Below, piece after piece: positions 11,631-22,829 of a stretch of 27,672 nucleotides of DNA; positions within the stretch are counted from its first letter, which is position 1, and each line of letters begins with the position of its first letter. A model generated the notes under the pieces. The model had not been told where the DNA came from. It was given only the letters and a program-made list of their open reading frames with translations, and searched no databases. Source of the DNA: a virus; the IMG/VR virus record IMGVR_UViG_3300022074_000294, positions 1 through 27,672 of that record; one strand, 5' to 3'. The position numbers and the translations under genes were made by a program.

Positions 11631-12278
11631 TCACGGCGTATAGAAGATTACTTCTTCTGGGTGCTTCTGAGCGTCTAGCGCAATAGCATCGGATAGATAC
11701 TTGTCCGCAATAGCAAAATACTCAGGGGCTGATGTTCCGCCTGTCTCTCCTCTTTCCCTGGCTAACAATGCAATTGCCAAATGAATGACTGGCATAGACG
11801 GAATCGCCATGCTGTCATCATTAGCAGACAAGTCAGCCTCTCGCTTTACGCAGTTAAACCGAATTGTGTACGCTTTGTCGGGCGTTGGATAGATGTCAAT
11901 TTGAGTATCACCATTGCTGTCTACGCCGTTGTACGTGTAGCAAGTAGGCGCACTCGTACGTGGCTCAGAGATAAGGTATGCCTCATCAAAAAACGTAGCC
12001 GTCTTATACTCCATAAACAGGTTTGACGTATCGTTTATAACGTTTAACGCCTTAATCCTATTTTGGCTGCCGGTAAGCACGTAGTTAAACACGTCGCTGC
12101 TAGTTGTAATCGTTAGCGTTGTGCGGAGCGCAGACCAATCCCAAGCATCTTCTACCATGCGTTTAGCATCGTTTACAAAATCACCTACCATCTTTGCGTA
12201 AGTGCTGTCCTGCACAGAAGCAACTTCTTCCTCTCGAAGCCGCCTCAACACATTATTTACTAAGTTTAGATAAGTCAT
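11631..12278 (-). CDS. Head-to-tail adaptor, P22 gp4 / T7 gp11-like
   Basis: A 215-residue protein. The N-terminal half is helical ([38 protein letters not shown]) and continues into beta strands (TLTITTSSDVFNYVL; IDIYPTPDKAYTIRFNCVK), ending in a helical IHLAIALLARERGE. The L-x-x-x-N-x-x-L-R-x-L...V...N-x-A-x-x-x-x-E...W-x-W layout is that of adaptor proteins that attach below the portal ring. Coupled to the preceding Cys-rich gene by TAATG (12276-12280) and eight bases from the hub gene, it lies where a podovirus adaptor is expected. Confidence 0.7.
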   Translation of the reverse strand: MTYLNLVNNVLRRLREEEVASVQDSTYAKMVGDFVNDAKRMVEDAWDWSALRTTLTITTSSDVFNYVLTGSQNRIKALNVINDTSNLFMEYKTATFFDEAYLISEPRTSAPTCYTYNGVDSNGDTQIDIYPTPDKAYTIRFNCVKREADLSANDDSMAIPSMPVIHLAIALLARERGETGGTSAPEYFAIADKYLSDAIALDAQKHPEEVIFYTP

Positions 12279-14611
12279 TATTTGTTCCTATCTACAATCA
12301 TCTTGGTAAGCAAACCGCCCATCATTTGGTTTGCCGATTGTGGTTGCGGCAATACTAAAGATTGAACTTGTGGTGCCTGATAATTAAGCCTCGCCATAAA
12401 AGGTGTAAACATGCCGCCGCCACCGCCGCCACCGCCACCACCGCCGCCCTCTTCTGGCTCAGGCTCTCCGCCGCCCGAAGGAACACACTCGCCAGTTTCT
12501 GGGTCTCGAACAAAACCTTCAGGACATTCTTCTTCAGGCTCTGGCTCGGGCTCAAAACTTGGGCAAGGCGTATCTGGATCTGTCGCTGTGCCATCAGGGC
12601 ACTCAGAACAAAGCGGCCAATCTAATGCGCCATTTTCACAAGCTTCTGGTTCTGGCTCTGGCTCCGGCTCATCCTCTCTAAATGGATAGCACTTGCCATC
12701 TTTGCCTCTAACAAATCCTTTAGGACATTGCTCTTCTTCTTCCTCTTCGCCATCATCAGGCCCCGGATCAGGCCCCGGAGCAGGCTCTGGTTCTGGCTCA
12801 GGCTCCGGCTCAGGCTCCGGCTCAGGCTCCGGCTCAGGTTCTGGTTCGGGTTCCGGTTCTGGCTGGCCAATTGGATAACATTTGCCATCTTTGCCTCTAA
12901 AAAAACCTTTAGGGCATGGTTCCTCTTCTCCGTCGTCAGGCCCATCACCATCTGGAGGAGCAGGCTCGGGCTCGGGTTCTGGCTCGGGCTCGGGCTCAGG
13001 TTCCGGTTCTGGCTCAGGAGGGTCTGTAGTAATTACACAATTACTACCTTGTTTGTCAGCTTTTGGCGTTACACCATCAGGACACATTCCAAAGTCGCCA
13101 TCATCTTCAATAACTTCACCTTCGGGCTCTGGCTCTGGCTCTGGCTCTGGTTCTGGCTCAGGTTCCGGTTCTGGTTCCGGTTCTGGTTCCGGTTCAGGTT
13201 CTGGTTCCGGTTCTGGTTCTGGTTCTGGCTGAGGAACAATGCAGTTTCCCTCATCATCATAAACGCCATTTTCACCAGCTTCTGTTCTGCAAGGATTGCC
13301 TTCTGTGCGATCTATAGGCGGATCTTCACACTCGCCAAGAGTTTCGTTATATACCTGCTCGCCTGTGCAATCTATTGGCGCTTCAACACATTCTCCATTT
13401 TCATTTACAATGTACTCATCATTTATGCACTCGCCACAACGACTGGTTCCGCCTTCTTCTGCCGGTATATGTTTTCTATTTAAGCTAGCGCACTCTTCTT
13501 CTGTTGGGCCTATAGGCGCTTTCTTTTCTGGCTCGCACTTTTCTGTTTGTTCAGAGAAAAAATATTCTTCTTTACATGGCCCGCAGCTTCCGTCCTCATT
13601 AACGGTAGCATTAGGGTCGTTACATTCTTTTGGTAGTTCTTGATTTGCTCTAGCGCAATACTTTTCGTTGTTTTTTTTAAACTCATCATCTTCGCAACTT
13701 GCTGCAAGCAAAAATGGGTTGTCTATTTCTAATTCTTCTCTAACTCTGTTAGCAACAAGAACTGAAAGCCAAGGGCCTAAAATACTTCTTAACTCGTCAT
13801 CTAAATCGCCAATAGTCCAAGACCCGGCAGTTAAATCTCCCCATGCTTCCCTTACAGCTTCTACTGCACCTTCTACCTGTTCTTCTATCCATCCTCCGGG
13901 ATCATCAAGAATGTCACTAATACTTCCGCCAATTTCTTCAACTTTTTTAATAATATCTCGAAGAGTGACTCCAGAAATTCCTGGAGGCATAGGAATGCCT
14001 AAATCAATAAGATTCTCAAGCCATTCAAAATTTATACAATCTTGCCAACCCGGATAAGTTGTTCCTGTCTCAGGATCGTATGATCTTCCCGTCCATTTAT
14101 CTTTTCCACAATCTTCGGAAACGTTAATGGCAGCCCTTGCCATGTCCATAATTGTGTCATAAACATCTTGAGGAGATGTTGGTATTGAACCTCTTACTTC
14201 ATTAAAAATATCTTTAACAACGTCAAAAACATCTTCAGTTATTTCTGCGCCTTCTTCTTGAAGATCAGAAAAAATTTGATTCCAATCAATTTCTGTTTCT
14301 TCGCTTTCGTCTTCTTCATTTTCTTGAGAAGCCAACCATTCTTCATAGCCGCCAGCATCATTAATTTGATTAATAAAATTTGCTAATTGTTCAAGAGCCT
14401 CAAGAGTTACTCCGGTTGCTAAAGAAATATCAAAAGGAGCATCTGGATTCATCCTAATAGAGTTAGCCTCTAGGATTTCTTCCATAGTAGGATCAGCCCA
14501 AATAGCTCCTAGCTCAGATTGGCCTATGCCACCTAGCATGCTTTCAAGGCGCGCTCTAAGAGCATCTTCTTGTTCAAGATCCTCAAATTCTGGAGGTACG
14601 TAAATAGACAT
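12278..14611 (-). CDS. Large acidic protein with Cys-rich modules and Glu-Pro repeats
   Basis: 777 residues in clear regions: 1-300 acidic and helical; 305-460 with about 15 cysteines in short modules of the form C-x-G-x..N-E-x-G-x-C; from 462 long Glu-Pro dipeptide tracts separated by near-identical modules [30 protein letters not shown] and [16 protein letters not shown]; a run of 12 Gly; and a conserved-looking C-terminal tail ([20 protein letters not shown]). There is no signal peptide. The Cys modules resemble disulfide-stabilised beta hairpins of extracellular proteins, and the EP tracts would form stiff extended rods, so a virion fibre, whisker or tethered surface protein is my best guess. 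It lies between the holin-like gene and the adaptor. The function is unknown. Confidence 0.7.
12641..13232. repeat. Hexanucleotide repeat tracts coding Glu-Pro, with a duplicated module
   Basis: Plus-strand runs of GGCTCT/GGTTCC/GGCTCA hexamers at about 12645-12670, 12783-12864, 12963-13020 and 13124-13230 encode the EP tracts on the minus strand. Between them, 12684-12728 and 12873-12917 are 40/45 identical at a distance of 189 bp (63 codons), a duplicated Cys module. Variation in third positions shows the tracts are not freshly expanded. Confidence 0.8.
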
Positions 14612-21316: not shown

Positions 21317-21535
21317 TTATGGAGATTTGTTTCTGCCAGCCTGTTCGTGTTCTCGCACCCACTTCATGTGACGACCGGGAAAGTCCCCACTATGACCCTC
21401 GAGTACGCACTTCGGGGCTGACACCATTTTAGTAGCATTAGCACCGCAACCGCACCTACTGGTTGTGATACCGCTCTCTACCATCTTTTCAAAAACATGC
21501 CCGTTGTCACAACGGAAATCGTATATTTTATACAT
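21317..21535 (-). CDS. Small zinc-ribbon protein, FmdB-like
   Basis: Seventy-two residues starting MYKIYDFRCDNGHVFEKMVE and containing SRCGCGANATKMVSA, then a basic GRHMKWVREHEQAG tail. The plan is that of FmdB-type zinc ribbons (Y-x-F-x-C...H-x-F-E...C-x-C-G), but the first C-x2-C is reduced to C9-x3-H13, with C28 and C30 as the second pair, so four ligands remain possible. The fold probably binds zinc; whether it binds nucleic acid or a virion partner is unknown. It overlaps the preceding gene by eight bases. Confidence 0.7.
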   Translation of the reverse strand: MYKIYDFRCDNGHVFEKMVESGITTSRCGCGANATKMVSAPKCVLEGHSGDFPGRHMKWVREHEQAGRNKSP

Positions 21536-21782
21536 TCATGTCTTCTTGTTCTTCGACCTCTGCCTGTTCTCGCGCTGCAGTAATCGTAGCCTCAAGATTA
21601 ATTACTGTAGCAAACGCAGCCACTTGGCCTTTACGGTAAAAAAGTTCCTCTTCATTCTTTACCGATTGTATGTCTGCAAGTTGCGTGGCGTTATTAGAAA
21701 GCTCGCCAATCAACTGTTTAAATCCCTCACTGTTAAACAACTCATTATAGTTGTTAAAGTACGCCTCTAACTCAGGTGTCAT
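21528..21782 (-). CDS. Small acidic protein, unknown function
   Basis: Eighty-four residues, helical, with an acidic C-terminal end (EQAEVEEQEDMNV). The centre ADIQSVKNEEELFYRKGQVA is typical of small phage proteins that lie between portal and scaffold, but I know no function. The ATG (21780-21782) has a GGGGAT site. It is separated from the basic gene upstream by 55 bases, the widest spacer in this part of the operon; I see no terminator there. Confidence 0.65.
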   Translation of the reverse strand: MTPELEAYFNNYNELFNSEGFKQLIGELSNNATQLADIQSVKNEEELFYRKGQVAAFATVINLEATITAAREQAEVEEQEDMNV

Positions 21783-21837: not shown

Positions 21838-22095
21838 TCAGGCTTTTCTTGATCGCGCCGTCTTTTTTGCAATCCGCTTGGGCTGGGCAGAATGTTGTTT
21901 TCCTGCGGCAGTATCCTTGCGTTTCTTGCGCGTTGTTGCTGCATAATCTTTTGCCGATAGCGACTTAATAGCCGCCTTAGGCAAATACCGTTCGCCCGTT
22001 GCCTTTGATCCTTGCGTAGATGGCTTACCCGATTTGGTTTGCCATTTTTGCTTAGTCCATTTTTTTAAAGACTTTTGAGGCTTTTTAAGTGCCAT
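21838..22095 (-). CDS. Lysine-rich DUF5872-type protein
   Basis: Eighty-five residues with about 27 Lys/Arg and 3 acidic residues: KKWTKQKWQTKSGKPSTQG, GERYLPKAAIKSLS, DYAATTRKKRKDTAAGK, then KRIAKKTARSRK. This order (KKWTKQKW.TKSGKPS, GERYLP.AAI..LS, YAATTRKKR, IAKKT) is the DUF5872 pattern as I recall it from phages and some large viruses. The charge suggests nucleic-acid binding, perhaps packaged with the DNA; the family has no established function that I know. It is coupled to the 60-residue gene by TAATG. Confidence 0.75.
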   Translation of the reverse strand: MALKKPQKSLKKWTKQKWQTKSGKPSTQGSKATGERYLPKAAIKSLSAKDYAATTRKKRKDTAAGKQHSAQPKRIAKKTARSRKA

Positions 22096-22277
22096 TACTT
22101 ATAGCCTCCACCCTTAGATTTATATTGCTTTGCGAGCATTTGGGCTTTTCGGGCTGACCATTGACCGGGCTTACCACCTTTGCCACTAGCTTTAATCTTG
22201 TTAAACAAGTTTTTCCGCATAGTTGGCTTAGTGTAATTACCAGCCTGATTAACCCTAGACTTTGCAGGCTTTTTCAT
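22095..22277 (-). CDS. Basic 60-residue protein with no acidic residues
   Basis: Sixty residues, 17 of them Lys/Arg and none Asp/Glu. Visible parts: KSRVNQAGNYTKPTMRKNLF, NKIKASGKGGKPGQWSARKA and QMLAKQYKSKGGGYK. It resembles small basic proteins seen beside DUF5872 genes in related phages, function unknown. Start and stop are both TAATG overlaps, so it is translated in fixed ratio to its basic neighbours. Confidence 0.7.
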   Translation of the reverse strand: MKKPAKSRVNQAGNYTKPTMRKNLFNKIKASGKGGKPGQWSARKAQMLAKQYKSKGGGYK

Positions 22278-22378
22278 TAGTAGCCTCGTTGACCACCAAC
22301 ACGCATTGGTTTTTTCTTAGGCTTTGATTTTGCTTTAGGTTTAGCTTTTGGCTTTGGTCTCATTTTATGGCCTGGCAT
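22277..22378 (-). CDS. 33-residue Lys/Pro-rich micro-protein
   Basis: ATG 22376-22378 to TAA 22277-22279 encodes 33 residues: a KPKAKPKAKSKPKKKP stretch (9-24) and a GGQRGY end, with 13 Lys/Arg and no acidic residue. The alternating Lys-Pro-Lys-Ala pattern is like the tails of linker histones. An AAGGAG site lies upstream, and the stop forms TAATG with the next start. Below usual annotation length, but the ribosome site and coupling make it convincing. Confidence 0.7.
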   Translation of the reverse strand: MPGHKMRPKPKAKPKAKSKPKKKPMRVGGQRGY

Positions 22379-22388
22379 AACAATCTCC

Positions 22389-22535
22389 TTACTTTTTGTG
22401 TGCTTTTTGAACAGTAAAATTTGCTGACTTAGATGAGCCCTTATGCGGCTTATAACCGCCAGAAGGGTCTTTCATTAACTTATACTCTTTACCTTGCTTC
22501 ATCCAATGATAACCATCTGGAGCTTTAACTTTCAT
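22389..22535 (-). CDS. 48-residue basic micro-protein
   Basis: ATG 22533-22535 to TAA 22389-22391 encodes 48 residues, beginning MKVKAPDGYHWMKQGKEYKL and ending in FTVQKAHKK, with 12 Lys and 3 acidic residues. The K-A-P-D-G-Y-H-W-M-K part looks like a short beta hairpin. GGTGA upstream is a weak ribosome site. It fits precisely between its neighbours in the basic-protein run. Confidence 0.7.
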   Translation of the reverse strand: MKVKAPDGYHWMKQGKEYKLMKDPSGGYKPHKGSSKSANFTVQKAHKK

Positions 22536-22541
22536 TTTGAT

Positions 22542-22829
22542 TCACCATTTTGTCTTATGCGACCAATAACGCGCAGATAATTTACTGGGATTGGAGTCCT
22601 GAGCATTGTGTCGCGCGTAGTAGCTTTTCTTTCGCGCTTTATCCTTTGCTGTCTTAGGATTCTTTCCTGCACCTTTAACGCCCTGCTGACCAAAACGAAT
22701 TGTCTTGATCTTATCACCTTGTTTCGCAACTACAACATGCGATTTAGTAGGATGGCTGGGGGTTCTCTTCGGTTTGTTGAACCCGCTTACGCCCGCGCGT
22801 CCCAGTCGTGAGTCTTTCTTTGCCGCCAT
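22542..22829 (-). CDS. Basic protein following the portal
   Basis: Ninety-five residues with about 25 Lys/Arg and 4 acidic: RLGRAGVSGFNKPKRTPSHP, then KSHVVVAKQGDKIKTIRFGQ, QGVKGAGKNPKTAKDKARKK and a W-S-H-K-T-K-W end. The middle part is beta-like and the rest probably disordered until it binds a partner. I recognise it as a recurrent companion of portal genes in aquatic podophages, without a known function. It is coupled to the portal by TAATG with GAAGGAG in the portal's last codons as ribosome site. Confidence 0.75.
   Translation of the reverse strand: MAAKKDSRLGRAGVSGFNKPKRTPSHPTKSHVVVAKQGDKIKTIRFGQQGVKGAGKNPKTAKDKARKKSYYARHNAQDSNPSKLSARYWSHKTKW

Follow-up and report, generated by a model that had tools for sequence, protein, structure and literature searches.

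The internal proteins IPI-III of phage T4 are basic, about 8-20 kDa in size, present at about 300 copies per head and able to bind DNA; they are located in the prohead core, are ejected, and in relatives are substituted by other basic proteins (PMC9026906). DVNP (viral/dinoflagellate nucleoprotein), a basic protein found in the virion proteome of the giant virus PkV RF02, is likewise thought to bind the genome (PMC11953307). Two further families are relevant here: Tlr6F, whose function is unknown, is conserved in polinton-like viruses, virophages, giant viruses and some phages (PMC4642659), and DUF5872 has been reported from an algal giant virus (PMC12085832).

We have compared with these systems a block of five small genes, E-D-C-B-A, found in the IMG/VR record IMGVR_UViG_3300022074_000294; the whole stretch of DNA that was analysed, 27,672 bases long, is referred to as the window. 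The minus strand of the window carries a podovirus-like late region, in which terminase and portal are followed by the block, an acidic 84-aa gene, a zinc ribbon, a scaffold-like gene and the major capsid gene (Table 1). The block resembles T4 IPI-III in that both consist of small basic proteins of a head module that are exchangeable between relatives. There are several differences: no sequence relation was seen; the T4 proteins are located in heads, whereas for the block presence in the virion is a prediction; and E and the B-A pair are widely conserved, whereas the T4 internal proteins are not. Furthermore, inspection of the five N-termini revealed no common capsid-targeting sequence or propeptide, and no prohead protease, of the gp21 type or otherwise, was identified among the late ORFs of this phage; for this reason what we propose is an analogy to the T4 proteins, not membership of, or homology to, that group. 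The likeness to DVNP is that of a basic protein from a marine virus; the window proteins do not match the Pfam DVNP model.

Table 1. Genes of the late region between portal and major capsid, with coordinates in the window and profile matches.
Feature	Coordinates	Strand	Match or remark
Portal protein, 683 aa	22829..24880	-	Upstream anchor; phrog_1216 2.9e-48; SU10_portal 4.2e-20
Gene E, 95 aa, basic	22542..22829	-	Tlr6F/DUF5754-like domain; phrog_7595
Gene D, 48 aa, basic	22389..22535	-	No PHROG match
Gene C, 33 aa	22277..22378	-	Low-complexity tail-like peptide in variable slot
Gene B, 60 aa	22095..22277	-	N-terminal half of B-A unit; phrog_17747
Gene A (type 1), 85 aa	21838..22095	-	C-terminal half of B-A unit; phrog_14910
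Acidic 84-aa gene, pI 4.1	21528..21782	-	Between basic block and scaffold
Zinc-ribbon gene, 72 aa	21317..21535	-	Zn_ribbon_8 4.2e-05, below Pfam cut-off
Scaffold-like protein, 271 aa	20478..21293	-	Downstream anchor; phrog_19777 head scaffolding 5.5e-07
Major capsid protein, 324 aa	19486..20460	-	phrog_267 major head protein 7.8e-51

The five ORFs were confirmed on the minus strand at the coordinates and in the order reported by a first-pass annotation, which had described them as strongly basic, with roughly a quarter to two fifths Lys/Arg and with two proteins free of acidic residues. The measured Lys+Arg contents of E, D, C, B and A (26, 25, 39, 28 and 32%, respectively; range 25-39%) agree with this description, as do the corresponding pI values of 11.1, 10.1, 11.8, 11.1 and 11.3 (range 10.1-11.8); the two proteins without Asp or Glu are B and C. 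The net charges are +21, +9, +13, +17 and +24, for a sum of +84. The genes had also been described as mostly joined by TAATG overlaps: these are present at the portal/E junction (22829) and at two of the four internal junctions, C/B (22277) and B/A (22095), but E/D and D/C are separated by gaps of 6 and 10 nt. Shine-Dalgarno-like sequences precede the starts of all genes but D, where no clear one was recognized; that of C is the clearest. The location of the block between portal and scaffold also held, with the refinement that the acidic 84-aa gene and the zinc-ribbon gene intervene before the scaffold. The former directly follows the basic block in every relative whose contig reaches that far, and the latter is syntenic in relatives, constantly between block and scaffold. 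Altogether, the overlaps and the conserved synteny bear out the notion that a set of basic proteins, coupled in translation, is encoded among the head genes. By eye, the acidic 84-aa protein is similar to small acidic portal-adjacent proteins of Syn5 (gp35), P-SSP7 and HMO-2011 (gp50).

Comparison of the relatives with the window gave pooled pN/pS ratios of 0.28 for E (n=59), 0.15 for D (n=33), 0.10 for B (n=12) and 0.06 for type 1 A (n=12), with pS ~0.65 and synonymous sites therefore near saturation. Strong purifying selection thus acts on E, D, B and A, which are real proteins; this selection together with the synteny rules out a reading of these ORFs as spurious. C is the weakest case among the five for being a real gene, as close copies occur only in L004 and L005 and a looser copy in L006; in its favor are the clearest Shine-Dalgarno-like sequence of the block and the finding that in many relatives its slot is taken by a comparable polybasic peptide, of MPGYGM-type with KKKK and 33-39 aa long. 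PHROG profiles match E, B and A over nearly their full length (residues 2-95, 4e-34; 2-60, 3.4e-35; and 1-84, 5.9e-34, respectively); the three families, 7595, 17747 and 14910, are all listed as being of unknown function. C and D, the two smallest genes, match no known family. The term 'histone-tail-like', which had been applied to the whole set, suits only the 33-residue C, but not E, B and A, each of which is a conserved domain in which certain Trp, Tyr, Gly and Pro residues keep their places; the structure predicted for E is alpha-beta-beta-alpha-alpha and that predicted for a B-A fusion is helical.

To follow the block across relatives, IMG/VR was searched with the portal protein, yielding 80 relatives, 62 of which have a contig spanning portal to acidic 84-aa gene. 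In each of these, E comes after the portal (61 by clustering, and L008 by tblastn), its start overlapping the portal stop by 1 nt in 40 of 56 loci and by 4 nt in 14 (the window included). Past E the contents of the slot vary: A is present in 47 of the 62 relatives, D in 35, B in 12, the B-analogue f3 in 33 and the MPGYGM-type f4 in 23, with f8, f10, f11, f17 and single proteins as rarer members. As to whether the five genes stay together, a point raised by the first-pass annotation, the slot is syntenic in relatives, so that the lack of synteny named there as refuting does not apply, but E, D, B and A are jointly present in only 10 of 62, so that a fixed five-gene set is ruled out. Another 74 contigs contain D, for the most part arranged as E-D-(B-A1 or f3-A2). 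In the 63 loci formed by the 62 relatives and the window, 253 of 288 small ORFs (88%) are basic inside the slot versus 79 of 587 (13%) elsewhere in the same loci, a difference whose P value is nominal only, because the loci are related and thus are not independent samples. The basic members of each block have a median summed net charge of +71, while about 24 families rotate. In general, it can be seen that the slot keeps its position and its charge, while the particular sequences are exchanged. A few non-basic insertions, collagen-like or QueC-like, are also found in the slot. In L018, L020 and L064 a PP-loop protein of 225 aa that resembles QueC (Pfam QueC 27.3 bits, above cut-off), possibly a DNA-modification gene given the role of QueC in 7-deazaguanine synthesis, lies between A and the 84-aa gene; in L006, L008, L010, L012 and L071 a related gene pair, one member with collagen repeats (230 aa) and the other of ~115 aa, sits between portal and E.

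On analogy with T4, we favor, as somewhat more probable than the contrary, an interpretation of the block as an internal-head ('nucleoid') protein set, whose members would enter the procapsid and bind DNA and/or scaffold. The reality of the genes, the coupling to the portal, the constant slot, the conserved charge, the pairing of B with A and the E-protease fusions described below are observed; packaging of the proteins is what we infer. The constant portal-scaffold position in all informative relatives counts in favor of such a set, as do the high share of basic ORFs in the slot, the E-protease fusions and the strict B-A1 and f3-A2 pairing. Against it count the missing targeting sequence and prohead protease, the E domains that are not strongly basic (see below) and the failure to find a PDB homologue. 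Since portal and small genes are chained by stop-start overlaps, the proteins would be made with the portal, at the time of head building. Their entry into the procapsid may occur via contact with the acidic scaffold or portal; they would then stay as the DNA enters, bind the packaged genome and neutralise part of its charge, and probably exit along with the DNA when a cell is infected. D, C and their substitutes would be exchangeable cationic members, and in this they would be like the internal proteins of the T-even phages. Purely as an illustration, with a genome of ~33 kb (~66,000 phosphates; the contigs of several relatives are 33-34 kb) and a T4-like copy number of 300 for each protein, the +84 set would offset roughly 40% of the charge.

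The turnover in the slot can also be read as the outcome of an arms race, if the block encoded host-takeover or anti-defence proteins, injected or made late, which bind host DNA, RNA or ribosomes. The fast exchange of members among close relatives fits this reading, as does the precedent of T4, in which IPI is an injected restriction inhibitor and the internal proteins vary by phage (PMC9026906). We regard it nonetheless as quite unlikely: A, B and D are under strong purifying selection and not under diversification, the wide range of hosts whose phages carry E and the B-A pair speaks for a generic target, and there was no match to PADLOC, although this library is one of host defence proteins and barely covers counter-defence. 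The lack of a PADLOC match also led us to reject the possibility that these are defence proteins themselves.

Among the families of the slot, those of B and A are tied to each other. According to family profiles applied to loci L002-L180, B with a basic partner is always followed by type 1 A (21/21) and f3 always by type 2 A (40/40), with no cross-pairs, so that pairing and order are invariant in 61 of 61 cases; five B or f3 matches, and five A matches (two of which are B-A fusions), have no separately called partner. The 1-nt TAATG overlap between B and type 1 A is found in 17 of the 21 pairs. B is found in 17 phage records, and both genes occur together again in the pelagiphages Lederberg and HTVC034P as well as in Methylophilales phage MEP402; in pelagiphage HTVC104P D is placed between the two (B-D-A). 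Single-gene B-A1 fusions are present in L168 (131 aa; 58% identity to window B and 73% to window A) and as S-CRES1 gp97 (132 aa). The two-part architecture of DUF5872, a B/f3-like part followed by an A-like part, is found in these pairs: f3 alone scores 35.6 bits, type 2 A alone 26.0 and the adjacent f3 and type 2 A together 60.8 against a cut-off of 27.5, with the L168 fusion just under this gathering cut-off at 26.2 bits. Window B, window A and B+A gave no match to the Pfam DUF5872 model. Direct hhalign comparison of B-A1 with f3-A2 (E-values of 8e-4 and 1.3e-3, with low probabilities) is only suggestive of homology, which the shared slot and pairing support. Judged from these sequences, B and A together make up one unit, of which each is a half. 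The f3-A2 pair occurs elsewhere as a single DUF5872 protein, whereas in the window the unit consists of two genes joined by a TAATG overlap; because the phage gene pair is a single protein elsewhere, B and A are predicted to work as a complex, and within an internal-head set they would represent a single two-part member. The strict pairing and the fusions alike lead to the clear expectation of a single complex of the two proteins.

E is widespread, with homologues in 148 phage records from very different hosts and with twelve positions that do not vary even when the ICP1 and GR7B sequences are included. In ICP1 the gene between portal and scaffold, gp125, annotated as capsid protease, encodes an XkdF-type protease followed by an E domain, while its counterpart at the same place in an Aeromonas phage has the E domain first and the XkdF-type protease second; in both ICP1 and the Aeromonas phages these fusions are located between the portal and scaffold/decoration/coat genes. 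The Peptidase_S78_2 domain was recognized in the E-fused homologues only (37.9 and 73.6 bits), and a Pfam search of window E did not find it. The occurrence of the same two domains in different arrangements points to a role for E within or on the procapsid. In an internal-head set E would be the constant member, a conserved folded domain encoded beside procapsid components or joined to them in one protein. In its fusions with prohead proteases the E domain lacks a strongly basic character; therefore, DNA binding is no universal property of E. Head-gene proteins of L181-L186 have three parts, a ChaB-like N-terminus (by eye), an E domain and a Peptidase_S78_2 domain, the last having been tested in L181 and assigned by eye in the others. 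Just upstream of E, L145 encodes a protein of the proteasome/HslV family whose C-terminal tail is strongly basic (L145:858-1583), and the proteasome/HslV-family phrog_1040 is matched by 8 of 134 scanned neighbours of E.

These fusions bear on a second explanation, which is that the proteins are assembly factors only, i.e. cationic chaperones or linkers for the acidic portal, scaffold and coat, lost before maturation and without any action on packaged DNA. Prohead proteases act in the procapsid and are usually then lost, which would suit partners of this kind; portal, scaffold, major capsid protein and the 84-aa neighbour are all acidic; and in P-SCSP1u the icosahedral capsid is built of MCP alone and lacks a decoration protein (PMC10575957). 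Pure assembly factors, however, would be expected to co-vary with scaffold or portal, yet the same B-A pair is found in other kinds of phage, and C is a near-pure polycation with no obvious fold for a specific chaperone. We consider this explanation unlikely. The MCP-only capsid of P-SCSP1u makes an ordered shell role unlikely, and we disfavor a reading of the block as ordered decoration or cement proteins: the sister phage P-SCSP1q carries f8 and DUF6321, located between the MCP and tail-tube genes, and the P-SCSP1u structure disfavours ordered decoration by its f8-type protein, while being silent on disordered internal proteins (PMC10575957).

The structure model of E (alpha-beta-beta-alpha-alpha; pLDDT 78, pTM 0.60) matches ICP1 ORF125 and XkdF-fused phage proteins in a viral structure library; against the PDB, E gave neither a fold nor a profile match. 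For A, weak PDB profile matches were obtained with ribosomal protein L32 (E-value 0.03) and, for type 2 A, with L37 (0.12). Together with a ribosomal-protein-like composition, and with the label L37ae in the record of one homologue, these matches could suggest proteins directed at RNA or ribosomes that act in the cell, for example in late translation, and that are placed among head genes merely for convenience of late expression. The L32 and L37 matches are however at chance level and driven by composition, on which ground we rejected a relation to ribosomal proteins, and neither the prohead-protease fusion nor the portal-scaffold position would be expected of such proteins; we find this explanation highly improbable.

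The resemblance of E to Tlr6F/DUF5754 is a sub-threshold one. Fifteen of 49 E homologues match at an E-value of 0.05 or less (best 2.9e-4), but none of the 49 was seen above the Pfam gathering cut-off of 27.4 bits, window E itself scoring 15.2 bits. Both are small virus-borne proteins, and E variants align over most of the 49-position model (positions 8-49 in the case of the variant found in L018), but E differs in having a conserved N-terminal RAGVSGYNKPKRTP segment that lies outside the model. In a pattern-based, and thus not exhaustive, search of 84,980 bacterial and archaeal genomes there were 31 hits to E, every one in MAG contigs, which are probably phage contigs binned with their hosts. 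This limitation to MAG contigs is consistent with a virus-borne family and leaves the idea of a cellular gene family unsupported.

In unrelated phages as well, these families recur in clusters of head and tail genes, which favors an internal-head set. The E gene of KBS-S-2A is flanked by a minor head and a coat protein, that of S-CBS2 follows the capsid gene, and that of MW202867 has P22-type tail genes around it. In 80 diverse contigs the matches seen most often among the nearest large neighbours of E are to major head, portal, terminase, head-tail adaptor and tail families. As a single family phrog_7578 is the largest near E; like several others, it has no known function. Exceptions that count against the internal-head reading are HMO-2011, C72C1 and Lederberg, in which the genes are at the margin of the late region or at a distance of kilobases from the portal. 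The hosts of the E and B-A families include SAR11, Roseobacter and Methylophilales and, for E, also Vibrio and cyanobacteria. A search for virion proteomes of phages with these families came up empty. Of the cyanophages checked for proteomic or structural comparison (P-SS2, Syn5 and P-SSP7), all three are without the block families, and the P-SS2 small proteins known by MS (ORFs 009, 020, 032 and 033) are not basic when translated.

The first-pass annotation had suggested that the block may be an undescribed subsystem. This stands insofar as no annotated function was found for the five genes in PHROGs, Pfam or PADLOC, but the resemblance of E to Tlr6F/DUF5754 and the DUF5872 architecture of B/f3-A qualify it, and the families of E, B and A are already known, though uncharacterised. 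The literature searched, which leaves most subscription journals outside, contained no description of the rotating cationic slot, of the equivalence of B-A with DUF5872 or of the fusions of E with proteases. If the block is indeed an internal-head set, short-tailed marine phages would package their DNA with a modular, exchangeable cationic set in a T4-like manner, and for the first time a testable role could be assigned to several widespread marine phage families of unknown function, and likewise to the Tlr6F and DUF5872 proteins of eukaryotic viruses. A broader proposal, which we put forward tentatively and consider rather doubtful, is that basic modules (E/Tlr6F-like, B-A/DUF5872-like, DUF6321, f8 and others) are exchanged between tailed phages and eukaryotic DNA viruses as parts of a general virion nucleoprotein system, arranged in operon-like strings in phages and fused in giant viruses.

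Small, strongly basic genes that match no block family are also found next to the small terminase gene of T7-like cyanophages, with net charges of +28 for Syn5 gp50 (L189:37069-37347) and +20 for P-SSP7 (L190:39734-39982). The window itself encodes at 12278-14611 a late protein of 777 aa with long Pro-Glu repeats (PEPEPE) and a Gly-rich C-terminal stretch.
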